A DNA stretch of 64,000 bases from Fragum whitleyi (taxonomy: Eukaryota > Mollusca > Bivalvia > Cardiida > Cardiidae): positions 32,496,912-32,560,911 of the forward strand of contig OX411548.1 in NCBI GenBank assembly GCA_948146395.1, written 5' to 3'. The position numbers and the translations under genes are program-made. This document shows positions 170 to 64,000 of the stretch, piece after piece; position 1 is the first letter of the stretch, and each line of letters starts with the position of its first letter. A model generated the notes under the pieces. That model was given only the letters and a program-made list of their open reading frames with translations, made no database searches and was not told where the DNA came from.

Positions 170-1548
170 ACAAGGTGCCAAATTGTCACAAGATACGCCC
201 GTCACACTGCTAAGTATAAACTGGGGGTTTGAATAGAACTTAGGTTATTTTGAATGAATGTTTTTTGCACCCATGAAGTTTCATGATCCTAGCTGTTATA
301 CTTTTAGAGATATACTCCGGACAAGATTCAAGTCTGAAAAACAACAAAGGGCAATAACTCAAAAAATAGGCCAGGTAGAGTTATGGTTCTTGTGTACTGC
401 ACTCCCCCTTGGTGAAATCTATACACCCATGTAGTTTCATGATCCTAGCTATTATACTTTAAGAGATATACTCCGGACAAGATTCAAGTCTGAAAAACAA
501 CAAAGGGCAATAACTCAAAAAATAGGCCAGGTAGAGTTATGGTTCTTGTGCACTGCACTCCCCCTTGGTGAGATCTATACACCCATGAAGTTTCATGATC
601 CTAGCTATTATACTTTTACAGATATACTCCGGACAAGATTCAAGTCTGAAAAACAACAAAGGGCAATAACTCAAAAAATAGGCCAGGTAGAGTTATGGTT
701 CTTGTGCACTGCACTCCCCCTTGGTGAGATCTATACACCCATGAAGTTTCATGATCCTAACTATTATACTTTAAGAGATATATTCCGGACAAGATTCAAG
801 TCTGAAAAACAACAAAGGGCAATAACTCAAAAAATAGTCTAGATAGAGTTATGGTTCTTGTTCACTGCACTCCCCCTTGGTGAGATCTATACACCCCTGA
901 AGTTTCGTGATCCTAGCTTTTATACTTTAAGAGATATACTCCGGACAAGATTCAAGTCTGAAAAACAACGAAGGGCAATAACTCAAAAAATAAGCCAGGT
1001 AGAGTTATGGTTCTTGTGCACTGCACTCCCCCTTGGTGAGATCTATACACCCATGAAGTTTCATGATTCTAGCTCTTATACTTTTAGAGATATTCTCCGG
1101 ACAAGATTCAAGTCTGAAAAACAACAAAGGGCAATAACTCAAAAAATAGGCCAGGTAGAGTTATGGTTCTTGTGCACTGCACTCCCCCTTGGTGAGATCT
1201 ATACACCCATGAAGTTTCATGATCCTAGCTATTATACTTTTAGAGATATACTCCGGACAAGATTCTAGTATGAAAAACAACAAAGGGCAATAACTCAAAA
1301 AATAGGCCAGGTAGAGTTATGGTTCTTGTGCACTGCACTCCGTAATGATGAGAAGAACACAATTGCCAAGTTTGAAGTGGATTGGACTTCAAGTGACAGA
1401 GTTATGCTCCGGACAAAGAAGTGGACGCCGCCGGACGCCCGGACGCCCGGACGCCCGGACACCCGGACACCCGGACGCCCGGCCGCCCGGACGCCGGATG
1501 CCACGGGTGATCCCATAATACGTCCCGTCTTCGACGGGCGTATAAAAA
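170..1548 (+). mobile_element. Helentron-like element with about seven 155-bp tandem units
   Basis: The 5' end reads AACAAGG followed by a weak hairpin, then the subterminal motif ATACGCCCGTC (193-203). From about 265 to 1380 a unit of about 155 bp repeats in tandem; each contains TCCGGACAAGATTCAAGTC and GGGCAATAACTC. A GC-rich (GGACGCCC)n tract follows (1420-1500). The 3' end is a hairpin whose right arm GACGGGCGTAT (1533-1543) is the exact reverse complement of the 5' motif, followed by AAAAA. The reading frames here (546-842, 858-1268) repeat with the unit and are not genes. The element sits inside an older MITE, which gives both boundaries. Confidence 0.85.
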
Positions 1549-1625
1549 TACTCATCGCACTCATTCAATTTCATTCAAATATCATTCCAAAACCACTCAT
1601 TTTGTCAATTTCAAGATGTTGTTAA
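1549..1625. mobile_element. MITE-A, right end after the insertion
   Basis: Carries the right terminal inverted repeat (TTGTCAATTTCAAGATGTTG) of the copy that begins at 1. It corresponds to 8246-8331 and 20150-20230. Confidence 0.75.
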
Positions 1626-1795
1626 ATGTATTAAGTGAAATGATCAATAGATTCCTGAGCTTCAGTAGCGCCAAATGGACTTTCTTATATTGCAAACGAG
1701 ACATGAATAGTTGCAGGAAATGACATAACGTATCAGAATTAGAAACAGCAGATTAAGAACCAAGTGTTAAGAAAGAAACACAATTCGTCTTATTT

Positions 1796-2024
1796 GGGGC
1801 CACGGTTATAAAAGTTTCTCAGGCCCAGGCTCAATTTACACAAAATTTTAAATTTTAAAATAAATATATGAACATAAAAGATGACATTAATAAGTTGTTA
1901 TTTATATCAACCTATTAATATCATCTTTTATGTTAATACATTAAAATGAGTAATAAAACAGAATTAGGGCTTTAATCTCAAATTGAATTGAGCCTGAGAA
2001 AAGTTTTTATAACCTCAGGCCCAG
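1796..2024. mobile_element. MITE-B, complete copy
   Basis: About 230 bp with terminal inverted repeats of about 25 bp. The left end reads GGGCCACGGTTATAAAAG and the right end is the complement of this sequence (CTTTTTATAACCTCAGGCCC without the first base). Centre AT-rich with a small inverted repeat around AAAAGATGAC/ATCATCTTTT. Fragments lie at 33690-33825, 47289-47371 and 54540-54688. Confidence 0.75.
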
Positions 2025-2785
2025 ATTGAGAATCAAGTGTTGAGAAAGAAACACTTTTCGTCTTATTTGATGTCGATTTTAAAAAGCGTGGTTTACCCTA
2101 TTTATAGATTATTAGCAATCAGTTTGCCCCCGGTCTTGTATTTCTTTTACGGATACGTAAAAATTTTGTGTCCAGGTTATACAATTTTCAGATTAGAATT
2201 CTACGAAAATTCCATATGTCATTTCATGGTAGCCCTTCATTGCTCACCTTTCTTTAATCTTAACGATCTAAACAAAACAGTAATATACCAATCATCCTGG
2301 TTGATTTAGCTAAATATGGCCTCTGTTGTATCTTTAAAGACTTTTGTAAGATTTGACATTAGTACCTGAATTTTTACCGAATTTCAAACTTGTCCCATAT
2401 TCCATCGATATAATCAATTTTCTTGAATGGGCAGAAAAATAAGGCCCTTAATATATACATGTGAACGATTTATCGGATGATTGAGATTTCAACCTTTTTT
2501 TCTTCTTCTTCTTTTTTTTCCTGCCTGAACTAATATCTTTTTACCCTACTTGACCCAATTTTGATTTTGTCTGAGAGTTCTGGATGGCAAAAAATATAAC
2601 CAGTTTTCAGGTTGATTGATAAAAATGGCACTCAGAGTATCTACAAATCTTTTTTTCAAATTTGACCTAAAGAGGTTCATCCCACTTTGCCAATTATATA
2701 AAACAAAACTATCGCTTGCAAGTACCTCAGGTCAGCTGTTAGATGCTGGTTAGTTTAAATAAAGTCGAAAAGGAGCACAATTCGC
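2025..2785. other. No gene recognised; diffuse repeat relics
   Basis: AT-rich. Segments of the form 'TTGATTGATAAAAATGGC' recur at about 2300, 2620 and 3495, suggesting decayed copies of one repeat. The open frame 2037-2309 shows no recognisable domain or splice context. Confidence 0.4.
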
Positions 2786-2975
2786 AGAAAATGCATGTAG
2801 AGTTGTTCCCCTTGAAAGGGTAAGGGACTCTTTTTGATAGCGAAGATGTGTTCTAAGTTTCAAGTGAATGTCTTCTAGAATGTCTTGAAGACATTCACTT
2901 GAAACTAAGAACACGTCTTCGCTATCAAAAAGAGTCCCTTACCCTATCAAGGGGATAACGCTACATGCATTAGAG
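2786..2975. repeat. Long near-perfect palindrome
   Basis: Arms of about 80 bp face each other. The motif AGGGTAAGGGACTCTTTTTG near 2817 is mirrored by CAAAAAGAGTCCCTTACCCT near 2925, and the centre around 2880-2890 pairs TTGAAGACATTCACTTGAAA with its complement. It is probably a foldback mobile element. No coding content. Confidence 0.8.
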
Positions 2976-4874
2976 GCAGCTCTAGATATTACTAAATATC
3001 AAAGTTTTTAATATGACATACGTCACGGGAGTGAAATAACCCCGGTGAATATTTTTGGTATTACACGTGTGTAATTACACTAATGAAATAACTATGCAAA
3101 TGAGCTTAGAGCGAATAGCAACGCTATTTTGTAACCGCGAAAATGACGTCATAATTTATATACTAGTAGTTTGACGTCAGTTTTAAACGGCGTTATATGT
3201 TTGGCGGTAAACTGATATGTTAAATTTCAAGAATTTTGACGATTTTATGCAAAAAATCGGGTCATATTATGAATAGAATATAAAATCTTTGCTCATAAAA
3301 TACCAAAGTTATTAAACTCGTCATCTTCAACAGGTAAAAACTTCGGTATTCAATGATCACTCATTCAATATCCTCAATTTTCGCATGACGACAACGACTA
3401 CTACGCCACAAAGGCCGTAGCAATACCTCGCGTTTCTCCGAAAACAGCAAAAAAGGGAAAATTTTCAAGATAATCAATTAAAATAATTTCCAGCTTGATT
3501 GGTAAAAATGGCTTCGAAAGTGACCACAAGGTTTTCTCGTGACCTCGCGTATGTCACAATCGGCCCAATTTTATAACTTGTTCCAGATTCTACCGAGCCA
3601 ATTAATCCGGCCAATGTTCATGTTAATTGAGCAAAGAATAAGTCCTCTATTTAGCAAGTTAAACTAATTGCAATTCATAACTAAGACTGCTCACAGATGG
3701 CGTAATGCAGGGGTATCAGGAGCAAAGCACGTGTCAGTGCACTGCCCTGAGTCCCCGACTGTATGCGAATTTTATAGTTTGACGTTAACGACAGGTCTCT
3801 GTTCCCTCCAATATCCAATCTTATTTAAAATACTCTGTGTCCGTAAAAACTCTTCAAATAATGTTTCGAGTATAAAAACTGTTGTTTTTTTTTGTTTGTT
3901 TGTTTGTTTTTTTTTTTCCTTTTTGCGTCTTATCTACCTCCGCCAAGAAACTTCAAGTAATGTTTAAGAAATCTATCAAAAACATTATTTTTGTAACAGA
4001 TGTTCATGTTCTTAACGCTCCCTGTCTGAAAACTCATATGTAACTATGGCAACGAAATTTTAGGACGCTGAATAAAATTTGCAAAAATAATAGTATTTAT
4101 GCCTGCGTAGATACTGAGCTGCACACTCAACAAAATATACACTGATCAAGTTAAATATGCGAAAGTTTAAGGCCCATAATTTCTGGATCATTCCTCGCGA
4201 ATACATTCAAGTTTTGAATTTCCCGAAAAAGAAATATGTCATTTACAACTACTGACTGCCTGTTGACTCTACGTGATTTAGTTGATGACCCACCTGACCA
4301 AAATTCGAAGGCAATCAAACTGGCGAATTTTCGGGTATAAGTATACTAGCCAAATCTTTGGCCTAAAGATGTTTCGAAATTATTAGAAATGCCATGCTCT
4401 GACTGAGATGAAATAGCAAGATCTCAACAATTTATTTATGGGTTCTTTTTAACCATTCCAAGGACAGGAAGATTTTAATGATTGATTGTTTTAAGTTGAC
4501 AATTTGAATGAATATTGATATTGATAACATCTATTTAAGGAAATTCGAAATAGGCTGGCAAAAGCACAATCCTGTCGTCAAATAATCGGATAGGTTACTT
4601 CGTAGGGCATCATTTCTAAACCAAATGATGCCATCGACTAATTTCATTTCTTTTTATAATAAGCGCAACTGAATACACGTTGAGGTGGATAAAGCCATTT
4701 AAAAGCAATAATCCTTAGCATTACCGAAAGTGTGCATTCTGCGCTGACGAACAAATAATTTTTTGCACTGGTCTTTTTCGCGAGACGGCGCATCGACTAC
4801 GAACATTCTTGCCTTCTGGGGCCATTAAACTTTTCACCAAGGACATAAACACATACGGATATCGAATACAAGCC
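2976..4874. other. Intergenic, nothing recognised
   Basis: AT-rich DNA upstream of the PAN/WSC gene. A segment near 3385-3440 resembles 42105-42150, so it holds at least one relic repeat. T-rich tract at 3878-3920. No promoter element can be assigned with confidence. Confidence 0.4.
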
Positions 4875-5169
4875 ATGCGTTTTTCACCCATCATTTTGAT
4901 TTGTCTACCAACTATCGTTGTTACTGGGGAAAAAATTTCAATCCTCTATAAAGAAAAATCAGACGTAAATAATAAAAATTGTAGAAACAAAAACAAGGCT
5001 TTCAAAAATGTGACCGTTTCGGACATCATGGCATGCAGTTCCATCTGCACGTCGAAGTCGGATTGTAAGAGCTTCTTCTACTTTCCAACCACACGACGTT
5101 GTGACGGGTGTATGCTGCCATACGACATGATAAATGTGAAAGAGAAAACCGTACACTACACCACTCAAG
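4875..5169 (+). CDS. PAN/WSC gene exon 1
   Basis: Codes for the signal peptide and the PAN-like part with cysteines in CRNKNKAF, ACSSICTSKSDC and RRCDGC. It ends CAA G before GTAAGG, leaving one base of a split codon. Confidence 0.85.
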
Positions 5170-8100
5170 GTAAGGCACTTTCCAAATTACTCTTCATTAC
5201 CATGAAATGAAAATATAGTAATCTGGTACCATCGGACATTTTTCCATTCTTGTAAAAAAGATATCATTACTAAAATGTACCATCAGTGATCACTATAAAT
5301 TGACCTAAAAAATCAAAAATGTTTTTCGTGCATTTTATAGAGAAAATTTGAATTTTATGTAGATTCCATTTTTCTTAAAGTAGTGCCATGAAAGGGGCCA
5401 CAGGAAGCTGTTTAATGACCTCCAAAGTTGGTTTAAATTATTCAAATGAATTAAAAGATGTAAAATAATGCACTCGTAAAATTTACTTTCACCACTACTC
5501 TGTCTATGATTAATTCCATAAAAGCGCCTGTCAACAGAAATACAACTTAAAATACAAGGGGACATGATGGTCCTAAATCGCACACCTGAATAAGTCAACT
5601 TTTAACTTGTCAACCATGATACAGAGATTGTTTGATGTTTATTTAGGGTGGTTTTGAAATAAAAAGACTTATTTTTTCGTAAATTATCAGCTTTCCTGTT
5701 ACCATGGAAACTAGAGACTTTTTTTTTTTTTGGAATTGAATTCTGTAACAACTTTAGTAGAGCTACATTCTGCCAGGTTTCAGATTGATTTGCCCAATGC
5801 TTTAAGAGTAGATTTTTTTCTTAAGATCCTCAGTCTTTCCGTTGCCATGGAAACCGTTTTTTTTTTTTTGCGTTTTTTTTTTTTTTTTTTTTTTGATGGA
5901 TAAAACTTTTTTTTAACAATTTTGGTAGATCTTCACGAAAGACACGTCTCTACCAAGTTTCTGCTCGATTGGCCTTGTGGTTTAGAACAAGATGATTTTT
6001 TAAAAAAGAATTTCGACAATTTACGGTTTTTTTCCGTTGCCAGAGTTTTTGAAAAAAATCAATTTCTTTAAGCAACTTTAGAAGAGCTTAAGAAGAGCTT
6101 CATCCAGGAAACACCTTTCCGAAGTATCAGCTTGATTGGCCAAGTAGTTTTGAAGGAGACGAATTTTTTCGGGATTTGGGGCAATTTTTGGCCTTTCTGT
6201 TACCATGGAAACCAGTTCTTGATTGAATTATATTCTTTTTACAACTTTGGCAGAGCTTCACCCTAGGAACATCTTTACTACGATTCAGTTTTTTTGGCCC
6301 TGTGGTATAGGAGGAGAAGCATTCTTTTTAACATTTCCGGCAATTTTTGACCTTTCTGTTACCATGATGACCAGAGTTTTATAATGGAATTTATTTCGTT
6401 TAACAACTTTGGAAAAGCTTAATCCCAAAATCATCCCTGTCAAGTTTCTATTTGATTGACTTAGTGGTTTTTCGAGAAGAAGCCTTTTAAAGAAATTGTT
6501 GAAACGATGGACGGACTGTGAGTGATTACAATAGCTGACCTTTAGCACTTTGTGCTTAGGTGAGCTAAAAAGCGATTCGAATTGCAAATGAATAAAGAAA
6601 ATCGATAGAATTTTTAAAAAATACCACAATCTGTCGTTTGAAATGATAAATTAGGGAAGCGGATAAATCTCGATGAATATTTTGTAATGCATGTACGAGT
6701 ATGTCATTCCGTTTACTTATCTTCTCTTATTCATGAAGAAATGTGCTTTCCTATTCCTCTACTGAACAATATGCGCCACTTTTAACTTATTTTGGTGAAA
6801 TAAGGTAGGCCATGACACCTTCTGTAATAAATATATCCTTTTTTTTTTAAACAACCACACTGAAAATGAAATAACATACTTTCATAGTGCATTCAATCGC
6901 TAACCAATACTTTCATAGTGCATTCATTAGCTAAGCCATTCGATGATATGCCGTTTTGCAGCGTATCCTAAATGTAACGTCATTACAAAAATGCTGATGC
7001 CATTACGAATATACTTCATGTATTCCATCGAAAACTGGTTTTGGAGTCTTTCGTACATTATACAAGAGAAATTGCCATGTTCATTTATTTATTATTCCAA
7101 AGGCCCGGATTTATTGAAGGATGCTATCGCCTTTCGCTTTGACCAATGCTCTTGTTGAAGTCTTATATCCTGATTAAGTTTTAAAGAATCATTTTAATTA
7201 AATCATATTATTCTCTTCAAGTTTTAAAAAACTAAAACTTTTTTCAGCGAAAGAAGCAGTAACCAAAAGCGGATATCACTTTGTTGGATGTTTCTCAACA
7301 AAGTGTGGGGAAAAGCAGTGTTCAAATGTGTGGAGGGGTGGTGTCCATGCTAACTCGGAAAAAAGTTGTTTGGAAATATGTGAAGATCAGTTCGACCAAA
7401 TATCGAGTTTCGGTCTACAGGTGCGTGTATGTTAGACATGAAGAGAATGCTTTCATTGCAATGTGAAACAAAAACCTGCAAGAATCTTGATTCATGTACA
7501 AGTTAACTGTCAGATTGGGTTTTATGTCTCATAGCACCATGAAAACAAGAAATATTCCTAGCATTTCTTAATCCTTATTTAGTAGAAAACCCCATAGAAT
7601 TATCAAGATACTCCGAGCGCAAGAATACACAATAGATGTAGTTTTGTTCACGAAATATATATATTACTTAAAGGGTTATTAAGCCTTGTACAGGCCAATC
7701 AGAATGCACGATTTAGACGAAACTAAAGTAAATTGTAATTAAATTTTTATTTCATACACGCGTATCAATTGTTTAGCATAACATCTCCATTAACGCCTCT
7801 AAAAGACTTCAGATTGTTTTTTAAAAAAAAAAAATTTCGTGAAAAATAAAACTTTTGAAGAATTGAAACTCCATTTTCCAATTGTTTAGAGTAGGTCACT
7901 ATACAAAAGATTATTTCTCAAACAGTCAGTTACACCATGAAATTGACATTCGCTTCAATCAAAACCATTCTAAATCGCTCACTCAGCGCCCCAATCATTC
8001 ATTACAAATACTCGCTCAATCCATTCAAAAATGCACAAACCCATTTAGAAATAAAGAATCGACAACGTCATTCAAAATAAATTTTGATTGTGAAAAATCG

Positions 8101-8935
8101 CGACTTAATTCAAATTGATAGCGTCTCTTAGGTTCTTTTAGAAATAAGAAGCTCTGCATTTTTTATTAAAGGAAGGTAATCAATATCGCTAATTGTGTTC
8201 ATCCTGAACAAAATTTGCGATATAGGATTACCTCCCATTAAACTCACTAAAAACTCGCTCCACACTCTCATTCAAATTCATTCATAAATCATTCTAAAAT
8301 CATTCACCTTGTCAATTTCAAGATGTTGTTTTTTGTACCATGGGACTCATTCGGAACACCACTCGGACAATCTCTAGATCAACCTCGGATGTATATAGAC
8401 GGACTGTTTTTAAAACGTACGGGAAACCTAGGAAAAACTCGATGACGTCAGTTAAAATGACGTTAGCCCTCGAAACTGTGAGTGAAAACATTCGACGTCG
8501 ACCAACGATACTCGTTTGATTGCACGATTTGTTACATACCCATCCGCCTTACATACATCCGAGGTCTGTTGCAGTTTACGGAAATGGCCGAGTGATGTTC
8601 CGAATGCCACGGGACTTTGAACTCGAATTCTAGACCGGCATCGAACCCGCTTTCTTGAAACCATGATTCCGTCGCTAATCACGAAATCCTGTTTAACATC
8701 TTTTGAATACGTCATCCGGTTGATGTAAACTACAACAAATCTCATTTTCGAATATTTTTATGGAGATCTGAGATGCCTATTTTATATAACGGGACACGAT
8801 TTATTTCAGGGTGATGATTGCTTCTGTGACCTCGCGTACCAGACCAACGCAACCAATTGCGACACTCGGTGTCCAGGGAATGATCTCCAAATATGTGGCG
8901 GAAAGGGTTCAGTCTCGGTGTTTGTCATGAAATGA
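4875..8935 (+). CDS. Secreted PAN/WSC-domain protein, three exons
   Basis: Joined exons 4875-5169, 7248-7420 and 8810-8935 give 197 residues plus TGA with consistent phases (1, then 0). The ATG at 4875 starts a hydrophobic signal peptide (MRFSPIILICLPTIVVTG); an in-frame TTG further upstream is not needed. Residues about 20-98 contain spaced cysteines of a PAN/apple-like segment. Residues about 105-197 form a WSC domain: YHFVGCFS, then SCLEICEDQF, then DDCFCD, then CDTRCPGND and ICGG, the usual eight-cysteine order. WSC domains are known to bind carbohydrate in fungal and animal proteins, so a secreted glycan-binding role is inferred. There is no membrane anchor or enzyme domain. Transcribed away from DNMT1 and not obviously related to it. 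Confidence 0.85.
5170..7247 (+). other. PAN/WSC intron 1
   Basis: GT donor at 5170 and a TTTTTTCAG acceptor at 7245-7247. Holds a Helentron-like element (5554-6571); the remainder is AT-rich with nothing recognised. Confidence 0.75.
5554..6571 (+). mobile_element. Helentron-like element, 145-bp tandem cores
   Basis: The 5' end TACAAGGGGAC...GGTCC forms a hairpin, followed by the degenerate subterminal motif GCACACCTGAA. Six or so core units each contain CTTTCCGTTACCATGGAAAC and a 'GCTTCACCC.AGGAAC' block. A short GGACGGAC tract precedes a 3' hairpin at 6532-6566 and the TAAAAA end. Close relative of the array starting at 62953. T-runs near 5857-5893. Confidence 0.75.
7248..7420 (+). CDS. PAN/WSC gene exon 2
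   Basis: Opens the WSC domain (GYHFVGCFS, SCLEICEDQF). Acceptor TTTTTTCAG, donor GTGCGT. Two bases complete the codon split by intron 1; the exon ends in phase 0. Confidence 0.85.
7930..8331. mobile_element. MITE-A, complete copy
   Basis: About 400 bp in intron 2 of the PAN/WSC gene. The left end TTACACCATGAAATTGACA is mirrored by TGTCAATTTCAAGATGTTG at the right (allowing for mismatches). The reading frame 7882-8118 lies in it and is not a gene. Confidence 0.75.
8335..8618. repeat. Inverted repeat, two arms of about 70 bp
   Basis: The left arm 8338-8405 (CATTCGGAACACCACTCGG... CCTCGGATGTAT) is mirrored by 8548-8615 (ATACATCCGAGG... CCGAGTGATGTTCCGAATG). The spacer is about 140 bp. Probably a decayed foldback element within intron 2. 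Confidence 0.65.
8810..8935 (+). CDS. PAN/WSC gene exon 3, with stop
   Basis: Codes for the C-terminal half of the WSC domain: GDDCFCD, CDTRCPGND, ICGGKGSVSVFVMK, then TGA at 8933-8935. Acceptor TTATTTCAG. No AATAAA is obvious in the next few hundred bases. Confidence 0.85.
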   Translation, partial: GDDCFCDLAYQTNATNCDTRCPGNDLQICGGKGSVSVFVMK

Positions 8936-9159
8936 TTTCTTAGAAAAACGTTTTAAACATGAAACATTTTAACTTTTATTGATTGTCTTTTTAGCGTAAC
9001 ATTTTGGATGAGAAATGTTGTGGCTTGAGATGGCATGAAGCACCCCCAAACCTGAAAAGTTGGTTTAGAGTATGGAGAGATATGCATAAAATTGTATAAC
9101 AATGTCAAGATAAATTAGCTTATCTTCTATTCATGATAGATGGGCGACATATAGGACTA

Positions 9160-9815
9160 GAGACATATAATCTTAGATTGGTAACCAAACCCTCGTAACT
9201 GAAGTCACGAGCATTTGGTAACCCAACGATGAAATGTGTTCACTCTCTCTCTCAGTACGAAAAATTTCTTTTGGTTTTAGGATAGGGTTATTAATACGCG
9301 TTAACGGTGATTACCGATTAACTTTTGTAATCTCGCCAAATACTTCACGGCTAAGCCACGCCCTGCCAGTTGAATAACATCGCAGAATACTTATTATCCA
9401 CGATAAATGACCTGGCAGGGCGGAGCCTAAGTAATGGGTCGCTGAACTTAAGGTTGGGGTAAATCAGCTTTTATTTAAAATTACTTACTTCTACAGAGAA
9501 ACGATATAAGTAACTTAAGACCTTAAATTGTAGGTTGGTCACCAAACCCTCGTAGCTTCAGCTTGTCTAAGCTGAAGTTACGAGACTTTGGTAACCAACT
9601 AATGAAATGTGTTCACTCTAACTAAGCACGTGAATCCTTTTAATCTTAGGTTACAGTTATTCAGTTATTTGCACACGCTCACGATTATTGCTGACTTACT
9701 TTTCAATGAACCCAAAATACTTAAAAGTTAACTCGCCAAATTACGCCACTGCTAAGCCCCGCCCTGCCAGTTCATTAATAACGCAGAATATCTAATCAAC
9801 AAATCTTGGTTTTCT
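9160..9815. repeat. Two direct copies of a hairpin-bearing repeat
   Basis: Copy 1 (about 9165-9450) and copy 2 (about 9520-9815) share a hairpin whose arms read GGTAACCAAACCCTCGTA and its near complement, then a block ending GCCCTGCCAGTT. Probably a MITE that duplicated in tandem. Confidence 0.6.
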
Positions 9816-10137
9816 GAAATCAACTTTCTACTTTCAATGAACCGGGTACTATAGTTAGAAGATATGTGAATAACAGAAAAGATATCCATTTCTTATTATT
9901 AATTTTTATTCGACTTAGTCTATATCATATTCCGTTGATTTAATTATCTAAAGCACTTATACTCGTAGAAATAGTTCTCATTTGAATTTGTAGAGTCGAA
10001 TATATTCTATAGGCATATAGAACCCTAAATCACCTAAATTATTAGAAAAAAAATCTATGAAACTTTGTCTGAATATTTCTATGTTATCTCTCTCCAAAAG
10101 ATTACTTGCAAAAATTTGATTGGTCCATGAATATGGT

Positions 10138-10520
10138 CTTGGCAGGATGGGGCATTGTCTCCCTTTGAATTCTTTGAAAACGTTCATCCTCAACCACTGG
10201 ACAAAACTTCAATGACTTTAAAATGTCTGTCCAAATCTTAGAATTCTTAAAGTCCCCGTCTGTAATCGTGAACATTTCCGAAACGCGAGACAATCATCTT
10301 GGACGACTGTGTATACAAAAACTAGACTTTTATTCTCAAAGATAAGCTTGAATTTGTCATTCCAATATTCGGTAGTGAAAATGATTATGACGCGATGAGT
10401 TAAATATAAGCCTAACTTGATGAATAATTATGACCCGCAACATTTGGGACTCCAATTCAAATACCGCTCCTTTATCGCCATTGAACATGGGCGTATTTTT
10501 CGTGACCAAAATCTCATTTA
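10138..10520. repeat. Dispersed repeat R10, uninterrupted copy
   Basis: 10250-10490 matches 32825-32892 joined to 33495-33700, including AAACTAGACTTTTATTCTCA and the 'TATAAGCCTAA.TTGATGAAT' block. It serves as the empty site for the element at 32893-33494. Confidence 0.7.
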
Positions 10521-12107
10521 CATATTTACTTTATACGGCAGATTATGCGTTTCACGAAAAAGCCGCCGTTTGTCGAATGAATAGTATTTGTATTTAACTC
10601 ATCTGTGGCTTAAAACCAAGTACAGTGATTTGTCTGAAACGACCGATATCGATGCTTCTTCTTCATAAGTAACGAGAGATTGTCAGTCAATCGGGAATTG
10701 TCGGCGATTCTAAGGAATATACAACGGTAATAATAAGGGCGCAGCAATGAAAGCGTTTTTTTTAAATCGGAGATTTATACCGGTTTCCAGAAATCCAGTC
10801 TGTTTGACCCACTACATTTTTACCTTTATCTTCTGAGCAATGTGTTCAAACCAAATAATGTGTTTTCAAACACCGAAGAAACGGCCTTTTCAGTCACAAT
10901 CTACAAACTTTGTTTTTATCTTATTTACTTTTCGACAAATAGAGAAGATGCTAATACAAAATTTGATGTAATTTTCGCTTTTAGTAATTACCAGTTATTA
11001 TTTTCAGTGTTTATAACAAGATTTTCGGTTGAGTAAAGGAGTTGAAACGTACAATAGGTTAACTGTAAAATAAATTTGTAGCACTTACAATATTACTACT
11101 CTGATTTTTTTCTCGAACGGTCATTTACCAGTTGTAGGGCTGACAACCAATCAAATTCTGTTATGATTATCACTCGGTCAAAACCCACGCGTAAATTCAC
11201 ACCACGTGGTAGATGCAATGGACATCGTCTGCTCGAAATGTGTCAATTAAGTTGTTTGTCATTGGTCAATGGTCGTCTGCACTCTGACAGGGAGCGTGGG
11301 AAGTCTACTGGTGGAATGAGTACTGTTGACTACATGTGTTAACAAATAGAAATAATTTTGTAGTTTTGAAATATTTGATTTCAATGAGCACTCTGATCAC
11401 GCTCCAATCCTATTTACAATAAATTCAAATTTGAGTATGAAGAAAAATTATTCAACAACAAATAAACCGACAAAAACATACGATAAACTGATATAGGATA
11501 GCAGTAAGAGCGATCTATTTTTAGAATAACTCATGAATAATCATAGAGTGCTGCTAGATTTAATCGATTGGTCAGAAACCAAAGATATAAATAGCATAGT
11601 TGCCGATTTCACGTGTTTCTTGAGGGAAAAAGCATTTATAGTATTTGGGAAAACCCAATGCTTGAAAAACAAACATGTTGGTAATCAAAATTGTAAATAG
11701 TTTAATGAAAAATGTTTTGTTGCTAAACAGGCTTTTAAACTCTAGAGAGAGGAATAATATGAACAGACAAGCTTTTAGCTTGTCGTGTGCTCATTATAAC
11801 AACGTAAAAAAATCTGCTAAGAAATAATTTAGACTAGCAGAGGGCTATCGAATCAGCAAACTTTCAAAATCGGACCCACGAGGTTGGATAAGCTGGCGAT
11901 GTCCTCGAAAAGATGAAGTGTTACGACAAAAAACTCACAAATTGGGCAAATATTTTACCAACTTTTATTGTCCAAATTTGAGCCCTTTTGATTGGCGAAC
12001 TATTGCACTATCCCAGCCTCTCAATGATGTCCGATTTACAGTGCTGACAGCACTTTGATTTCGCTTTGGACTTTGTATGGCGTCAAAAGCATCAAAATGG
12101 CATTGAG
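10521..12107. other. Nothing recognised
   Basis: AT-rich DNA without long open frames, splice-framed coding similarity or clear repeats. Confidence 0.4.
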
Positions 12108-13789
12108 AACAAGAGGGCCGTTGGCCCTGGGTGCGCTCACCTGAGAAAAAAGCTTCATTACATAGGTTTGTCCATGCAACTACAGAAAAGGAGAATTTCA
12201 CTTATTCAATCAGATAACATTTGAAATAATCCTCCCCCCCCCCCCTCTGCTCCTCCCCTGGTCATTATTTATCTAAGCTTTTTCATAAAAGGTCTGTGAT
12301 CAGCTAATCTACGCCAGATATACAGGCTGAGTCTGAGACTTTTAAAGTTTTCTTTAATGAGTTGATCAATCCATGTCAAATATAAAGGCTGTAGGGATTC
12401 AAAATTCTCAACCAAGCACTCCCCCCTCCCCAAAGATGCTCTGCACCTGGTGAATCTACAGTCATGATTTAGCTAATTCAATTAATGTCCATATGCTGAT
12501 CATCCATACCAATTTTCAAGTCTGTAGGACTCCTGGTTCATTAGAATAAGTTTAAAGATTTCAAAAATGATCCAAAGTACTACCCCCTCCCCAAGACACT
12601 CAGCACCTGGTGACCCAACAGTCATTATTTTAGCTATTTTTATTAAGGTCAATATATTGATCACCCATGACAATTTTCAAGTCTGTAGGGTTTCTGATCC
12701 AGGAGAAGAATAAGGTTAAAGATTACAAAATTGATCCAAAGTACTACCCCCTCCCCCCTAATGCTCCGCCTCTTGTGACCCTACATTCATGATTTTTGCT
12801 ATTTAATTTTAGATCCATATGCTTATCATCCATGCCAATATTGAAGTCTGTAGGACTCCTGGTTCATTAGAAGATGAAGGTTAAAGTTACAAAATTTTCA
12901 CAAAAGTACTCCCCCCTCCCCCTGGTGCTCCGCACCTGGTGACATTACAGTGATGATTTTAGCTATTTTTATTAAGGTCTATGAGCTGATCCTCCATGCT
13001 AATTTTCAAGTCTGTAGGGCTTGTGATTCAGAAGAAGAAGAAGGTTAAAGATTACAAAATTTTAACAAAAGTACTACCCTCTCCCCCTGGTGCTCCGCAC
13101 CTGGTGAATCTACAGTCATGATTTTAGCTAATTCAATTAATGTCCATATGCTGATCATCCATGCTAATATTCAAATCTGTCGGGCTCCTGGTTTAGAAGA
13201 AGAAGAAGGTTAAAGATTACAAAATTTTCACAAAAATACTACCCCCTCCCCCCTGGTTCTCCGTGCCTGGTGGCCCAACAGATATGATTTTAGCTACTTT
13301 TATTAAAGTCTATGAGCTGATCCTCCAGGCCAAATTTGAAGGATGTAGGGCTTCTTATTCAGAAGTAGAAGAAGGTTAAAGATTACAAAATTTACCCAAA
13401 GTACTACCCCCTCCCCCCTGGTGCTCCGCACCTGGTGGCCCAATAGATATGATTTTAGCTATTTTTATTAAGGTCTATGAGCTTATCATCCATGCCAAAT
13501 TTCAAGGCTGTAGGGCTGCTTGTTCAGAAGAAGAAGAATTTTAAAGATTTTCATAAATTTTTAACTTTCGTTGCCATAGCAACCAGAGTTTTTCACCGAT
13601 TTCAATTCTTTTAGCAATTCTTAAAGGGGATCACCTAAGGAACATTTCTGCCAAGTTTGGTTAAAATTGGACAAGTAGTTTAGGAGGAGATGTCATTTAA
13701 AGAAATTGTTGACGGACGACGGACGACGGACGGACAAAAGGTGATCACAATAGCTCACTTGAGCACGTTGTGCTCAGGTGAGCTAAAAA
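12108..13789 (+). mobile_element. Helentron-like element with about seven 164-bp tandem cores
   Basis: The 5' end AACAAGA is followed by the hairpin GGGCCgttGGCCC (12114-12126) and the subterminal motif GCTCACCTGAG (12135-12145). Core units carry 'GCTCCGCACCTGGTG' and 'AAGTCTGTAGGGCT' about every 164 bp. A GGACGAC tract is followed by the 3' hairpin, with right arm CTCAGGTGAGC (13773-13783) an exact reverse complement of the 5' motif, then TAAAAA. Confidence 0.88.
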
Positions 13790-13819
13790 CAGAATCAACC
13801 TAGGAATAAAGCTCTGCAA

Positions 13820-13874
13820 ATCATAATTTGATAACAAAACGCTGTGTTTTACTGCGTTTTGTTATCAAATTATA
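13820..13874. repeat. Perfect short palindrome
   Basis: ATAATTTGATAACAAAACGC pairs exactly with GCGTTTTGTTATCAAATTAT across an 11-base loop. Purpose unknown. Confidence 0.85.
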
Positions 13875-14569
13875 AAGAGCATGAAAGGACGCGATTAACG
13901 ATCGAAAGGCAGTAATGATAATTAATTCATCAAGCGCATTTATCCATGTACCTCTAGAATCCAAATGAATCGAAATTACTACGATTACGTCCGAGGAACT
14001 TTCCAATTTACGGAAAATTCCAAACAATGTTCTATATGGATATTAGTAATACATTTATCACAATAAATCTACCCTGTGTTCAAGATGAAAACGTTTGGGA
14101 AAAGTTGTTGCAATTATATCCGCTTTGTACGTGCAAAGCGATATTACGTTTTTTTAAATGTTCGCTAATGTTTAGGCATTATCGCATCCTCAATGTAGAG
14201 CTTTATTGTGGAAAGACTACATGTAACTACACATGCATATTTTTGGATAAAGCTTTTGATTTTATAGATATTTCGATCAGATTGAAAATCCCCACGGAAA
14301 AGGGAATGTTTCTTTAAATTGAGTTATGTGGTTTATTTTGCATATTCTAAAATAAATGTTTGTCTCATTTTCCATTTCATTTGCTAAAGACACTTACGTG
14401 CAAAGCGGGTGGATCTTTTAAACGTTTGCAAACAGTTTTGCATCCTGGAAGCAGGGTAAGTTATATCACTCAGATTGAAAGGAAGGCATTTTGTTTCAAT
14501 TTTACAGAATGAATCGAAGTTTTTCCGATGAATCTAGTAAATATGAACTAGAATAGTTGTCCAGGAAAA
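13875..14569. other. Nothing recognised
   Basis: AT-rich. The open frame 14027-14317 (96 residues) has no recognisable domain, flanking splice signals or neighbours to support it. Confidence 0.35.
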
Positions 14570-14960
14570 CACTTGTCGGCTCTGCAAAGGGTTGACCTTG
14601 AAATACGACCTTGACCTTTGACCTACAGCGATTGTACTTGTTTAAATGTCACTACTACACCTTGAAGGCAACACCAGTGTCAAATCAATTTGAAATACAC
14701 ACATAAAAGTTATGCTCCGGACGAAAAGGACCCTGACCTTAAATGTAACCTTGTCCTTCAACAAACAGAAAAGAGTGTATCAAATGGCATATCTACTCAA
14801 AGTGGAAAAATGTGCTTAGTTTCTTCTTTTTTTTCAACCTATCAAGAAATGCAGGATTTATGCTCCGGACAATACCGGACGGACATAGGCACAAACGTAT
14901 GGGCCAACTTACACCGTAGTTCAACCCCTTCTCGCTCACCGCAAGCGGGTCGACAAATAA
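14570..14960 (+). mobile_element. Decayed tandem-core element
   Basis: Contains the GACCTTGACCTTTGACCT block (14608-14625), two TATGCTCCGGAC motifs as in the array at 265-1380, a GGACGGAC stretch and a weak hairpin around CGCTCACCGCAAGCGGG. The 5' end is not identified. Confidence 0.45.
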
Positions 14961-15284
14961 ACATTTATACATTCATAAACAATTGTTATGTGGACACAAG
15001 AATGAAAATAAAATGAAATGAAGGCACCGTTTTCTGTGGTTCTGTATAATGAATGTATAGTCGAAATGGGCTCATTTTCAAAAGATGAAGAATATTATTT
15101 GAAAGTATCATCCAAATCAGATTACTATTATTTATTCTTAAAGGTAGACGGGTTTCCTTTTAAATAAAAAGAAAAATTACAGACAGGCCCGTTTTCCTTG
15201 ATGTAGCATAACATTGCCAAACACGGGCAATTTGCACTTTGGAAGTCACATGTAAAGGCTCCTATTCTATGGTTAAGGTCCTAT

Positions 15285-15357
15285 TCTATGGTGTAGCCCA
15301 AAACAGTTGTAACTGCCTATAAATATATAGGCAGTCACAACTGTTTCCTGTCGAGCC
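15285..15357. mobile_element. Short hairpin repeat (CAGTTGTAACTGCC family)
   Basis: Arms AACAGTTGTAACTGCCTATA and its complement enclose a few bases. The same hairpin recurs at 28960-29030, 29105-29170, 29228-29298, 35312-35380 and, more decayed, 46073-46125. Confidence 0.75.
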
Positions 15358-15360
15358 ACT

Positions 15361-15840
15361 GGTTCATGGTCATTTAGCAGACTCAATTTCTGTTGGTTGC
15401 AGAACGTAACTTTTATCATTTCTTATTCATTTATTTTTAAAACATAGAAATATGGGCCAGGATAACAGGAATGAGTTTCTTTTTTTCCCTACTGATACGT
15501 TGAGATAAGGACTAACCAAATTAATCCGATTTCTCCTTTTATCCAATAATATGTCTTATATGTCTATATTTTAGTAAATTATATATGAGCGATATACTAA
15601 GAAATAAATTTCGTTTATAATTCCAACCATAATCGAAATATTTTGTTATAAAATGAAATTTCTCATCAACCATTTTCTATCATCTAATACATCTGTCTTC
15701 GTTTAAGTTAATCATTCATGGGCCATATATGATGAAATGATTTCATTAGTTTATCATTGCTACTGACATGAGCTTATTAATATTTATAAGAGAATTTCCA
15801 AGAATGTATACTACTCATTAAAAAGTTATATTTGATTAAC
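15361..15840. other. Nothing recognised
   Basis: AT-rich intergenic DNA. Confidence 0.4.
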
Positions 15841-16098
15841 ATGACCCGTCACGCGAAAAGGGACCATCTGGGTAGTGTATAAATTGTCGACCACAGTCAA
15901 ACTGCGGGATTGTGCAGACTGACTAGGGTCGAAGTTTTCGCACTTAACTTATTTTCTGAATCTAGACTAATAAATCTACCTTCCAGTGAACAAATTTTTG
16001 AATTGCGACCTCTGGTTGGCCTATGTTGGACCCCATCTCTTTTTCAAACACTTATTTTTCAGAGTTCCCAGATGACCCCTTTTTGCGTGACGGGTCAC
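15841..16098. mobile_element. MITE with about 32-bp terminal inverted repeats
   Basis: Left end ATGACCCGTCACGCGAAAAG continuing to CATCTGGG; right end CCCAGATG continuing to TTTGCGTGACGGGTCAC. The arms differ at a few positions. The frame 15910-16197 overlaps it and is not a gene. Confidence 0.8.
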
Positions 16099-16503
16099 AA
16101 TTACATAAAGATCCAAGTTAGCTTATTTGCTGATAAATTTCATAACGGAATGAACAAATATGCATATTCTGAATTAGTCTTTTTGTGGAATCAGTGATAA
16201 AATCAACTAGTTGGCAACTGATTGGTGAATCGACCAATTAAATTGTGGATTTATGAGATTGGCAACGCGTCTGTGAGTTTTATATTAAAGTTTTAAACCT
16301 GTCGGTGACGTCTTTCAAACTTGTGGAAGACAAGTCTGTATCGACGACTAATTTGCTGTTGTATGTGAATGGAGGATGAATAGTTTTTTCCTGCGGTCTT
16401 CGGTCGACGCTATTATTTATTTGATAGTTTCGATAATATTTAACGCAGAACCCCTTTTTTTGACGAACTGAAAGTTAATGCGAACCCACTGCAAAATTCA
16501 TGT
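16099..16503. other. Nothing recognised
   Basis: Intergenic, AT-rich, no supported feature. Confidence 0.4.
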
Positions 16504-17500
16504 TAAACAAGAGTTGTCAGCGGACAACGTAGCTCGCCCAAACTGCCGCTTGTCACAAACAGCACTTGACCAAAGATCTACGTTCAAGGTTAAATTTTTT
16601 TCATTAAAGTCTATGATCTAATATATATCAGTCTGATTTAGAGATCGAAGTTCAAGGTTAATATTTTTAATTAAAGTCTATGATCTAATATATATCAGTC
16701 TGATTTAGAAATAAGAAAGAAATAAAGATATAATAGCCATAGGTATAAGCACTCAGAAAATATAAGCAAGGTTCAATTTTTTTGTTAAGTTTTTATAAGT
16801 ACATAAAAGGTCAAGGTCAAATATAAAGGACCTTGGTTACTGGTGAAAGCCTATCACCTGGTGAGTTTGTGTATGAGGTTATGATGTCCCTAGGTTAGAG
16901 CACTCCGAAAACATATGCAAGGTTAAAGTTCTTGGTTAAAGTTTTCCCAAGTCCAAAAAAAGTCAAGGTCAAGTTCAAAATTTTAAGGAGCTTGGTCTCT
17001 GTTGAAAGCCTATCACCTTATTAGTGTGTATATGAAGTCATGACCTCCCTGGGTAAAACAAACAGAAAATATATGCAAGGAAAAAAGGGTTTTCGTTAAA
17101 ATTGTTCTAAGTCCATAAAAGGTCAAGGTCAAGATGTCAATGACCTTGGTAATCAGTGAAAACCTATCACCTTTCGAGTGTGTTTATGAAGTAATGATGT
17201 CCCTAGGTAAAATTATTAAAAAAAGAATAAGCAGAGTTGAAGTTTTTTTTGTTAAAGTTTTTGGTTAAAGTTTTTCTAAGTCCATAAAAGGTTGAGGTCA
17301 AGGTCAAAATGTCAAGGCACATGGTCTCTGGTGTAAGCATATCACCTGGTGAGTGCATTTATGAAGTAATGATGTCCCTAGGTAAAGCATTCAGAAAATA
17401 TAAGCTAAGTTAAAGTGTTTTGGTAAAAGGTTTTTTGGTTAATTTTTTTTTTCAAGTTTTTTTTTAAAGGGTCAAGGTCACTGTCTCAAGGTCATTTTGA
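16504..17500 (+). mobile_element. Helentron-like element, 5' end and cores only
   Basis: The 5' end AAACAAGA is followed by the hairpin TTGTCagcgGACAA. Five core units of about 165 bp contain AAGGTCAAGGTCAA and 'CTGGTGAAAGCCTATCACCT'. The expected 3' hairpin is missing; another element begins at 17564. Confidence 0.7.
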
Positions 17501-17563
17501 CATGAGTGCTTGTCTTAAATGAGTGTTTATGTAAAATATAAAGCCTCGAGGATTAATATTGAT

Positions 17564-18425
17564 ACAAACTAGAACTGTCGCAGAGCGGACTAATACCCCC
17601 CACAAGCGCTTTGTCAGAATGCAAGTGCTATAAGTGCAGGATGTGTTTGTTACTAATATTGAGGTCATATGTAGCATTTGCATGAAGTTTCATGATTCTG
17701 GGTCACTTGGTTTTTGAGATAAGAGTCCAGAAATGAAAATTGATGAAAAATTGACTGTGACCTTGACCTTTGACCTATATGACCCAAAAACAATAGGGCA
17801 CTTCCTTGGATCATAAGCAACATTTGCATAAAGTTTCATGCTTGTGGGTCACTTGGTTCTCAAGTTTGTGTCCGGAAACGAAAAATTTAACAAAAATTTA
17901 CTGTGACCTTGACCTTTGACCTATATAACCCAAAAACAATAGGGCACTTCCTTGGGTCATAAGGAACATTTGTATAAAGTTTCATGATTGTAGGCCACTT
18001 GGTTCTTGAGTTAGAGTCCGGAAACGAAAATTTAACAAAGGCTGACTGTGACCTTGACCTTTGACCTACATGACCCTAAAAAACAATAGGGCACTTCCTT
18101 GTCTCATAAGGAACATTTGTATAAAGTTTCATGATTGTAGGCCACTTGGTTCTTGAGTTAGAGTCCGGAAACGAAAATTGATCAAAAGCTGACTGTGACC
18201 TTGACCTTTGACCTACATGACCCAAAAACAATAGGGCACTTCCTTGGGTCATAAGGAACATTTGTGTAAAGTTTCATGATTGTAGGTCATTTGGTTCTTG
18301 AGTTAGAGTCCGGAAACGAAAAGGTCTACGGACGGACGGACGGATGGACGGACGGACGGATGGACAGACAGACAGACATGGTGAAACCAATATACCCCCC
18401 TCTACTTCGTAGGTGGGGGGTATAA
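17564..18425 (+). mobile_element. Helentron-like element with nuclear-receptor-like half-site cores
   Basis: The 5' end AACTAGAACTGTCGCAGAGC forms a hairpin; the subterminal motif is ATACCCCCCAC. Four cores of about 146 bp each carry TGACCTTGACCTTTGACCT (17758, 17904, 18049, 18196). A long (GGAC)n tract follows, then a 3' hairpin with right arm GTGGGGGGTATA (18413-18424), matching the 5' motif. The 3' end touches the next element directly. Confidence 0.85.
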
Positions 18426-18684
18426 TAACAAGATGTGTATGTGAAACACGAATGCCCCTGGAACAGCATTTTTTTTAAAGTTTGACCTTGACAGATGACC
18501 TTGACATATGACCTTGACACATGAGCTTGACTTTGTTGTACAGCTTTGTATGGCAAATACTTTTGGAGAAAAGGCAAAGGTTAAGTTTGGTTAAGTTTTC
18601 AGATAGACGGACGGACAGAGGGACAGACAGACGGACATGAGTAAAACAATATGCCCCCAATCTCTCGATACGGGGGCATAAAAA
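18426..18684 (+). mobile_element. Short Helentron-like element, GTGTTT family
   Basis: The 5' end AACAAGATGTGTATGTGAAA gives a hairpin with AAACAC; ATGCCCC follows. Then TGACCTTGACA repeats, a (GGAC)n tract and the 3' hairpin ATGCCCCC...GGGGGCAT with AAAAA. Same family as 31120-31416, 42386-42680, 45376-45675 and 56652-56715. Confidence 0.82.
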
Positions 18685-19818: not shown

Positions 19819-20230
19819 AGTTAAAAACATCGTGAAATTGACATTCATCTCAATCAAAACCACTCTAAATGGCTCACTCAACGCTCCAATCATTCATTCC
19901 AAACATACACTCAAATCATTCCAAAACACACAAACCCATCAGAAAATATAGAATCAACAATGTCCTTCAAAATAAATTTTGATTGAGAAAAATCGCGGTT
20001 TCACTGACATAATTCAAATTGTAAGCGTCTTATAGGTTCTTGAAGAAATAGGAAGCTATGTATAGAATTTATATGCATATTTTATTAAAGGGAGGTCATC
20101 CTGAACAATATTTGTGATATAGGATTAACTCCCATTAAATTCACTCAAAACTCTCTCCACACACTCATTCAATTCCATTCCTAAATCATTCAAAAATCAT
20201 TCACATTGTCAATTTCACGATGTTGTTAAC
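19819..20230. mobile_element. MITE-A, complete copy
   Basis: The best preserved copy, about 410 bp. Terminal inverted repeats GTTAAAAACATCGTGAAATT and (reverse complement of the right end) GTTAACAACATCGTGAAATT differ at one position. Confidence 0.82.
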
Positions 20231-21503: not shown

Positions 21504-21544
21504 GCTCATCTGATTCTCCTTGACCCCTGAGACATCACATAAAT

Positions 21545-22060: not shown

Positions 22061-62137
<40,077 letters not shown>

Positions 62138-62952
62138 CTTGGAAACAAATCAAGGAGATTTCAATTAACTTCCAGCCAAGACTAGCATAACAAATTTTCA
62201 ATATAGACTTGGTTAAGATCAGTTTGTCTTAACCCTTTGCTGTTTAATCCCTGCTTTTTAAGCGTCTGTGAATTTATGATTGAGAAAACATTGTGAAAAA
62301 AGAAGAAATTGCTCCTGACAAGCAATTTCTTCTTTTTCCATACTATTTTCTACCCTACTGAATGGTTATTTTTCAAATAAAATCAACTTTAAATTTTTGT
62401 CTGCAAGACCTTTGAATTTGGACAGGTCCAAAATTTTGTAAAACAGGAAAGGGTTAAGTAAACTTCCATGACCATTCTTATACATACAAAGTAGATTTTG
62501 ATAACAGCCTCGAGAGAGGATTTTTGCAACGAAAAAAAAACTATAAAGGAAGAACAGGTATATTTTCAAAAACTATCCTTGTTATTACCAGTGATATTGA
62601 AGAGTCATGCAGAATGAAATCCCTTTGAAATTTACATACAAATCAAAAGGTTGACAGCACCGCATAAACTGAAAGAGTATCAAAGTTTTTCTTAATAAAT
62701 GAATTTTACACATGTATGAAATTTCCTTTAGGTTGCCTAACATTAAACTAAATATCAGGGCAAGTAGGTGACTTCATCCATTACTAGGCCACAACATATT
62801 ATACTTGTCTAATTTAAAAGAATTGAAGATTACAAGTGTTTTGTTCATGAAAGTTTAAAAAACTTAGTCTCTTTCTTCATTATGATGTATTCTGCTGCTC
62901 TTTTTCTTTTGGGGAGTTTTTGGGAATTGGTAGTTTTCATACCACAGCTTAT
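62138..62952. other. DNMT1 intron, nothing recognised
   Basis: AT-rich. A small hairpin AAGAAGAAATTGCT/AGCAATTTCTTCTT lies at 62299-62335. No further exon with a consistent phase was found. Confidence 0.5.
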
Positions 62953-64000
62953 TACAAGAGGACCATGATGGTCCTATATCGCTCACCTGAGTAAGTCAAC
63001 TCATAACCTGTCAACAATGTTATAAATACCAGAGATTGTCTGATATGTACATTTAGGGTGGACTTAAAAGAAACAGACTTTAATTTCCTCCTACGGCAAT
63101 TTGATTTTCTTTTTAATTGCAAACAAAGTTATTGATGGAATTGAATTCAAGTTTAGTAGAACTAAACCTTAAGAATATCCCTGCCATGTTTAAGATATGC
63201 CAAATAGTTAAGGCGAAAATTAACCTTCTATGATATTTTTGGCAATATTTTGACATTTCCAATACCATGTAAACCAGAGATTTTGATTGAATAAAGTTAT
63301 TTTTACAAATTTGGTGGAGCTTCACCCAAAAAATATCCCTACCATGTTTCAGCTTAATTAGCCTTGTGGTTTAGGAAGAGAAGAAGTTTTTCTAAGATTT
63401 TCAGCCATTTTTGTCCATTTTTCAGCCTTTCCGTTACCATGCAAATCAGAGTTTTTGATGAAATTAAATTCTTTCAACAACTATTGAAGAACTTCACGAA
63501 AGAAACATCCCTGCCAAGTTTCAGTTTGATTGGCCTAGTGGTTTAGGAGGAGAAGATTTTTTTCTAAGATTTTCAGCCATTTTCGGCCATTTTTCAACCT
63601 TTCAGTTACCATGGAAACCAGAGTTTTTGATGAAATTAAATTCTTTTAACAACTTTTGAAGAGCTTCACCCAAGAAACATCTCTGCCAAGTTTCAGGTTA
63701 ATTGGCCTTGTGGATTAGGATGAGAAGATTTTTTTTCTAAGATTTTCAGCCATTTTCAGCCATTTTTCAACCTTTCAGTTACCATGGAAACCAGAGTTTT
63801 TGATGAAATTAAATTCTTTTAACAACTTTTGAAGAGCTTCACCCAAGAAACATCCCTGCCAAGTTTCAGCTTAATTGGCCCATTGGTTTAGGAGGAGAAG
63901 ATGTTTAAAGAAATTGTTGACCGACGGACAGACAAACAGACGGACAGAGAATGGCCGGACAACGGACGGTGAGTGATCACAATAGCTCACATTGATTACT
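62953..64000 (+). mobile_element. Helentron-like element, runs off the window
   Basis: TACAAGA, hairpin GGACCatgatGGTCC, motif GCTCACCTGAG (62981-62991). Five or six 145-bp cores (CAGTTACCATGGAAACCAGA, GAAGAGCTTCACCCAAGAAA), then a GGACAGACGGAC tract. The left arm of the 3' hairpin appears (AATAGCTCAC) but the sequence then departs from the expected motif. Confidence 0.8.

Follow-up and report, generated by a model that had tools for sequence, protein, structure and literature searches.

What decides where, and in which direction, a rolling-circle element enters a eukaryotic genome? The target choice of such elements is, to our knowledge, an open question, and it is raised by a 64,000-nucleotide stretch of the genome of the bivalve Fragum whitleyi (contig OX411548.1, positions 32,496,912 to 32,560,911), referred to here as the window, in which a group of short repeats lies in a single direction. 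The evidence supports their identification as non-autonomous Helentrons (HINEs, Helitron2 group), which a preliminary description, made from the letters of the window, had seen from the opposite strand. The near-uniform gene-sense orientation of their intronic copies suggests, as far as sequence comparison can tell, insertion into DNA opened by transcription. The curated set comprises 27 elements with eight subterminal inverted repeat (subTIR) keys and in nine families, K1 to K8 with K4 divided into K4a and K4b, from 264 kb (the window and 100 kb on each side); nine complete elements and one damaged element lie inside the window. Positions beyond the window are window-relative, negative to the left and above 64,000 to the right. 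Matches to the element ends are scored in the orientation of the preliminary description, a + match corresponding to HINE sense on the minus strand. As the end queries were derived from the same 264 kb, the strand counts in the window are descriptive.

The gene test was made in kinesin introns, and the expectation that HINE sense equals gene sense was set down before this analysis, which used sequence that had played no part in forming the idea. The sample consists of 12 inter-exon stretches from as many kinesin genes (12 of the 14 introns listed; five genes on the plus strand and seven on the minus), eight of 5 kb and four later ones of 4 kb; gene strands were read from the exon matches, and stretches between same-strand kinesin exons were taken as intronic. 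End matches lie in gene sense in 34 of 35 cases in the first eight stretches and in 14 of 14 in the later four, 48 of 49 altogether, and the sole antisense match is weak (31.9 bits) and located inside a K4b element. Merged by hand, the matches of the first eight stretches represent 19 elements, all sense. HINE orientation follows the gene strand in 12 of 12 kinesin genes, on both strands. The first eight introns are also enriched in exact K2, K4, and K6 ends, with six against 0.94 expected from genome totals (6.4-fold, P = 4e-4); the four later introns contain one exact end.

Around the window the orientation is organised in strand domains. All 36 end matches in the window are on +. Between 0 and 100 kb there are 55 + and 2 - matches, the latter belonging to one element at 68784-69016, and beyond 100 kb there are 0 + and 52 -, the flip being located between 92984 and 105587, 29-42 kb to the right of the window end. 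To the left of the window the matches are mixed, 12 + and 10 -. Exact ends number 10 against 2.19 expected at 0-93 kb (4.6-fold), and 1 against 2.35 in the left 100 kb, where there is no enrichment. The host gene of the window is DNMT1-like and lies on the minus strand, as indicated by a DNMT1-RFD match (E = 1.5e-21) at 71744-72079 (L019:7744-8079), outside the window, where HINE sense is also minus.

Similar coherence is found elsewhere in the genome. Five of eight 3-kb loci around K2 ends hold other families, always on the K2 strand. On chromosome C1, among the places listed (the first 100 each from two of the K2, K4, and K6 lists and 17 from the third), pairs of different families are on the same strand in 17 of 17 cases below 5 kb, 30 of 41 at 5-15 kb, 28 of 39 at 15-30 kb, and 38 of 76 at 30-60 kb, so that strand coherence is gone by 30-60 kb. 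Below 30 kb, 75 of 97 pairs are concordant, compared with 49.5 (standard deviation 4.9, maximum 68) in 5000 label shuffles. Self-matches of Helentron-like sequence are concordant in 1917 cases and discordant in 39; since the sense was partly assigned, these numbers show coherence only. Over the whole genome the strand totals are balanced (740/762, 5326/5562, and 8038/8368 for K2, K4, and K6 ends, respectively).

Other repeats in the same DNA lie both ways: 39 of 112 loci, in 17 clusters, are in the minor orientation, and the largest cluster is divided 33:27, although these clusters, built by single linkage after masking of Helentron-like sequence, may mix families or hold unmasked Helentrons. 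Potential targets are likewise nearly symmetric, with T5 and A5 runs on the coding strand numbering 127 and 131 in the first eight introns and 258 and 291, and 159 and 181, in the two domains. Among the titles and abstract openings listed from the open-access literature, none reports a gene-orientation bias of Helitrons or Helentrons.

The target itself can be read from empty sites. Among the elements listed, the joined flanks of those at 32893, 74798, 120839 (minus), and -1096 (minus) are present intact elsewhere without target duplication, and most of these empty copies carry a run of five A on the strand of the preliminary description. The empty copy for the element at -43432 has six A, and those for the element at 128634 have AGAAA in place of AAAAA. 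AAAAA is also present at the 3' flank, in the same orientation, of 25 of the 27 curated elements. Taken together, the empty sites and flanks show that, on the HINE strand, the elements enter at the 3' side of a T-run, which makes the target strand-specific; a T-rich target and the lack of target-site duplication are both features of HINEs.

On the HINE strand, the host T-run is followed by a hairpin that includes the 5' subTIR, then by a microsatellite of (GTCC)n units, in most cases tandem repeats, a 3' subTIR, a separate 3' palindrome near the 3' end, and the terminal TCT[TA]GTT; the short K4b elements have no tandem repeats. The best copy of each family has subTIRs that match over 10-13 bp (with one mismatch in K6), in line with the length of about 11-15 bp typical of HINEs, and several copies have decayed. 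The features of the window are as follows.

169..1543, minus strand: HINE K2, key ATACGCCCGTC, with the HINE 5' end at the high coordinate and the 3' palindrome end at 169
5554..6571, minus strand: diverged K1 copy
12108..13784, minus strand: HINE K1, key GCTCACCTGAG, palindrome GGGCC/GGCCC
17567..18424, minus strand: HINE K3, key ATACCCCCCAC
18427..18679, minus strand: HINE K4a, key ATGCCCCCG, adjoining the K3 element, with a subTIR match of only 7
22064..22297, minus strand: exon-like frame, by eye the C-terminal methylase motif of the DNMT1-like gene (PF00145 only at E = 0.071)
24687..27805, minus strand: HINE K5, key ATACGCCGCC; 25890-25964 holds another end of the HINE 5' type
29915..30934, minus strand: HINE K6, key GCTCCACNGGC
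31137..31411, minus strand: HINE K4a with a damaged TCTTGTT end
32893..33489, minus strand: HINE K3, its empty site, GTACAC joined to AAAAACTAGAC, found elsewhere
36342..36515, minus strand: HINE K4b, 179 bp, key ATGCCCCCGA
36686..36865, minus strand: exon-like frame with DNA_methylase, DNMT1-like gene (PF00145, E = 1.6e-4, 21.7 bits, just under the cut-off of 22)
38341..38427, minus strand: palindrome-side end of K5
42408..42679, minus strand: diverged K4a copy
43451..43636, minus strand: exon-like frame with a BAH domain, taken as part of the same DNMT1-like gene (PF01426, E = 7.4e-4, below the cut-off)
45376..45669, minus strand: HINE K4a
62954..64000, minus strand: K1 copy running beyond the window, its other end matching to 64022

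It is also worth recording that the ends of K1 (e.g., 13765-13784) contain CAGGTGAGC, a strong splice-donor-like string present on both strands of K1 elements. The window further contains a tandem array at 61268-62022 (2.8 copies of a 267-bp unit with a palindrome within the unit) and, at about 2820-2955, a long fold-back repeat spotted by eye and not among the HINE matches.

This layout agrees with the published anatomy of Helitron2, HINE, and oyster Cg_HINE elements, and the Helentron-type, non-autonomous identity proposed in the preliminary description is thereby upheld. So are its AAC[AT]AGA starts with family-specific hairpins and its five end pairs (193/1533, 12135/13773, 36369/36506, 45401/45661, and 17593/18413). 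The matching of the two ends is real and family-specific, but since the layout on the opposite strand is the one that fits HINE anatomy, its 5' and 3' labels have to be exchanged, and the variable 5' hairpin regarded as an added feature is the known 3' palindrome viewed from the other strand. Unrelated bodies with like ends, to which it drew attention, are normal for HINEs; the true peculiarity lies behind its phrase '+ strand elements', all 36 end matches in the window being on +. The hairpin does vary among families, without a one-to-one link to the key: the K1 key is combined with GGACC/GGTCC and GGGCC/GGCCC, and the K4 key with GTGTTT/AAACAC and TGTCA/TGACA, so that key and palindrome change independently. 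A canonical Helitron1 (5' TC, 3' CTRR, insertion between A and T) was considered and rejected, as the ends here are CTTGTT or CTAGTT and the site is a T-run.

Comparisons with published systems refer to the portions of the respective accounts that were compared. In Helitron2 (PMC3627910) the 5' asymmetric terminal inverted repeat (ATIR) forms the 5' hairpin, the 3' ATIR lies just upstream of the 3' hairpin, and two related elements show compensatory changes. Shared with the elements described here are the ATIRs, a hairpin at either end, a target after TTTT that is not duplicated, and the proposed opening of the 5' hairpin by ATIR pairing. What differs is that nine families occur side by side in a single animal genome; the hairpin is irregular in every one of them, and the ATIRs match perfectly or with one mismatch. 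HINE/DINE-1 elements (Thomas et al. 2014, PMC4067079) and Cg_HINE (PMC7492417) combine a subTIR, an inverted repeat (IR), a microsatellite, tandem repeats, and a 3' palindrome. Helentrons/DINE-1 share non-autonomous copies with subTIR, IR, 3' stem-loop, and a T-rich target, as well as a Rep protein with a C-terminal endonuclease, also present in this genome. Cg_HINE of Crassostrea gigas shares an 11-12 bp 5' subTIR with a complementary IR, a GTCY, GTCC, or GTCK microsatellite, tandem repeats, a 3' subTIR, and a 3' palindrome, the comparison being one of described anatomy. The compared portion of the Helentron/DINE-1 account does not mention gene-sense orientation, and that of the Cg_HINE account contains neither a gene-orientation pattern nor a remark on hairpin irregularity. 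The end structure is thus known anatomy, and what is added to it is modest: an irregular hairpin in the presence of two matched subTIRs.

The family-specific keys noticed in the preliminary description were found, though they are expected from described HINE and Helitron2 elements, and its proposed comparison of own with shuffled pairings came out in favour of own-family matching. The own-family pairing of the eight keys is the best of 40320 permutations, with the caveat that the 5' ends were partly chosen by match. In an unpicked test, in which any exact AACWAGA within 3.5 kb upstream served as a candidate, 32 of 36 3' ends had a candidate; the best one gave a mean score of 8.38 with the own family and 5.96 with other families, and with the nearest candidate only, scores of at least 8 were obtained in 15 of 32 own and 27 of 780 other pairings. 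Ten of the 32 3' ends score below 8 even with the best candidate. A loose scan for AACWAGA with a distant inverse 10-mer was abandoned in favour of curated ends, since it gave 17 sites with both a hairpin and a partner on + and 16 on -, no more than the 19 and 12, respectively, of a control with the motif reversed taken as a whole.

The 5' subTIR hairpin contains exactly one irregularity in all nine families, judged from one representative per family. K1, K2, K4b, K5, and K8 have a bulge on the 3' arm (of two bases in K8), K4a and K7 have one on the 5' arm, and K3 and K6 have a mismatch. By contrast, the two subTIRs of the best copy match perfectly in eight families and with one mismatch in K6, and the predicted energy of the subTIR duplex is more favourable than that of the hairpin in eight of nine families, with effects of concentration and tethering ignored. 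These predictions agree with the published proposal in which pairing between the subTIRs opens the 5' hairpin. The hairpin loops of K1, K2, K3, K5, and K6 are of the GAA or GGA type, which has unusual stability in single-stranded DNA. The ends printed for Fusarium FoHeli likewise show GAA (PMC5148889). The irregularity of the hairpin is not mentioned in the compared portions of the Helitron2 and HINE accounts (PMC3627910, PMC4067079, PMC7492417).

Potential autonomous partners are abundant. At least 150 matches to Helitron_like_N are present in the genome, with frames of up to 2628 aa among those listed, and the listed matches include equal-scoring frames of 2508 aa (six) and 2535 aa (four); the many open frames of nearly 2500 aa and the repeated equal scores suggest, at the level of sequence, that autonomous Helentrons have been recently active. 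One 2508-aa copy, of which two parts 2 kb apart were read, contains Helitron_like_N (1.5e-27), REP_ORF2-G2P (3.1e-6), and a C-terminal Exo_endo_phos domain (1.7e-7); the genome thus holds an autonomous element with Rep and a C-terminal endonuclease, as expected for HINEs. Part of a Helentron frame (L041:73-507) also matches Herpes_teg_N (E = 4.8e-10), a kind of match that can stand for an OTU-like cysteine protease. Such a protease has been reported in Helentrons (PMC4067079). A K3-like 3' end (L043:2315-2362, 42.8 bits) lies about 830 bp downstream of the stop codon of the autonomous frame, in coding orientation, which supports the element orientation used here.

With modest confidence, we favour the reading that HINEs are moved in trans by Helentrons and joined to T-runs of the transcription-exposed coding strand, a weak hairpin lock and a family key acting at their ends. 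HINEs would be short copies mobilised by Helentrons with an HUH-type Rep nuclease; HUH enzymes, including Rep, act on single-stranded DNA. The T-run that receives the transposon strand would lie on the coding (non-template) strand, chosen because that strand would be single-stranded in the bubble or R-loop of germline transcription, and the orientation of the element would then record the direction of transcription. The imperfect 5' hairpin would act as a weak lock and give way to the duplex between 5' and 3' subTIRs, the family key keeping each end with its own partner. Bao and Jurka (2013, PMC3627910) propose a model in which the 5' hairpin is opened when the two ATIRs pair with each other, and here the subTIR duplex would mark the end of rolling-circle synthesis. 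A stricter version, according to which insertions of the group are almost confined to the coding strand, exposed by transcription, of genes active in the germline, and the irregular hairpin and subTIR duplex form a two-state, family-keyed lock, is put forward tentatively and leans slightly towards doubt.

The same gene-sense pattern would be produced at insertion by transcription-coupled repair, if template-strand nicks stalled RNA polymerase and were removed, so that mainly coding-strand insertions succeeded. Such nicks could come from the APE-like endonuclease of the Helentron itself, and the autonomous protein does carry the Exo_endo_phos domain. An orientation bias made at insertion by this repair is reported for human L1 in genes (PMC5717806), the comparison being one of kind; L1 is a retrotransposon biased against sense. 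Alone, repair does not predict the enrichment in introns, and it seems an unlikely explanation, if one to be taken seriously. Purifying selection, with insertion both ways and loss of antisense copies that disturb the host transcript, has a parallel in the selection proposed to act against one orientation of intronic retroviruses in human (PMC1794541). In the 27 elements, poly(A) signals number 22 antisense and 17 sense, acceptor-like sites 26 and 18, and donor-like sites 6 and 15, the splice-like sites being scored with an unfitted matrix; the first two are somewhat in favour of selection, the third is contrary to it, and there is no consistent antisense excess. The K4 elements (163-300 bp), ten of which together hold one poly(A) signal and no splice-like site, are as strand-biased as the rest, and sense orientation is also found in all of the four non-query K4 copies with at least 90% identity that lie in kinesin introns or the DNMT1 domain. 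With introns enriched and other repeats lying both ways, selection appears improbable as the source of the pattern.

Insertion into the lagging-strand template would relate the elements to bacterial IS200/IS605, whose orientation recapitulates replication direction (PMC5371812); single-strand transposition and an orientation that records the direction of a polymerase would be common to both, the comparison being one of behaviour, and the bias follows replication there and genes here. Strand domains do exist, and the GC skew of unique DNA goes in the expected direction, but weakly (-0.030, standard error 0.012, vs. +0.023, standard error 0.015). The coherence on chromosome C1, lost by 30-60 kb, is short for animal replicons, and orientation follows the gene strand in kinesin genes of both strands. 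Since the coherence is gene-sized and the gene strand fits, the replication reading was dropped as very improbable, even though co-orientation of replication and transcription could mimic the gene-strand pattern. The view of the preliminary description, in which the elements are of a new kind, covary across families and have gained a variable hairpin at the 5' end, was right about the end pairing, but with the same structure published for Helitron2, HINE, and Cg_HINE and the orientation read backwards, it has almost no probability left.

Several observations weigh against insertion guided by transcription and against the lock. The gene test rests on one gene family, the kinesins. In a neuronal-receptor control, three 2.5-kb stretches by exons yielded one sense K1, one antisense internal fragment, and one stretch without matches. 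Downstream of a receptor exon on C1 (8824968, +), K2 and K4 ends lie 12 and 20 kb away on + in the scoring orientation, and are antisense if the gene extends that far. Neur_chan_LBD has at least 151 matches, many clustered on C9 and C2, and most of those listed have a near-whole domain in one frame; they represent a large receptor expansion, probably intron-poor. The C1 concordance is only about 72% at 5-30 kb, and poly(A) signals and acceptor-like sites are, as given above, somewhat commoner antisense. One clear antisense K4a copy lies in the plus domain at 68784-69016 (L019:4784-5016), with a sense K4a at a distance of about 190 bp and a K5 element at about 30 bp, and may be a local inversion or a true antisense insertion. 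The minus domain (105-162 kb) yielded no host gene, and its sense was set from the elements themselves, while the parts at 0-22 and 73-93 kb were given the DNMT1 sense without exons shown there; for all these parts the counts of self-matches, other repeats, and K4 copies are consequently no gene evidence. A weak TatD-like match in the minus domain (122612-122791, minus strand, E = 8.8e-4, below the cut-off) is antisense to the surrounding elements; frame-broken TatD-like sequence spans 122493-122880 (L024) on the same strand, and the match was not taken as a host gene since the neighbouring frames look intronless and frame-broken, though it would count against the reading if it were one. As for the ends, K1 is an exception to the predicted energies, its subTIR duplex (-13.9) being less stable than its hairpin (-15.0). 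The search for a Rep-helicase element with the same ends, suggested in the preliminary description, gave the Rep/endonuclease frame and one K3-like 3' end, but the 5' partner that had been predicted beforehand was missing from the 5 kb searched (some 4.5 kb of it upstream of the frame), where the best site had three mismatches, a level reached by 274 of 300 shuffles; ends common to the autonomous copy and the HINEs are therefore not established.

The near-total gene-sense orientation, together with other repeats lying both ways, symmetric targets, and enriched introns, would point to a single-stranded coding-strand target and would make the question of target choice testable from sequence data alone. 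If this is true, the tens of thousands of copies in the genome would form a strand-resolved record of germline transcription, HINEs could mark gene direction in unannotated genomes, and eukaryotes would have, in this group, a counterpart to IS200/IS605 that is directed by transcription where those elements are directed by replication.

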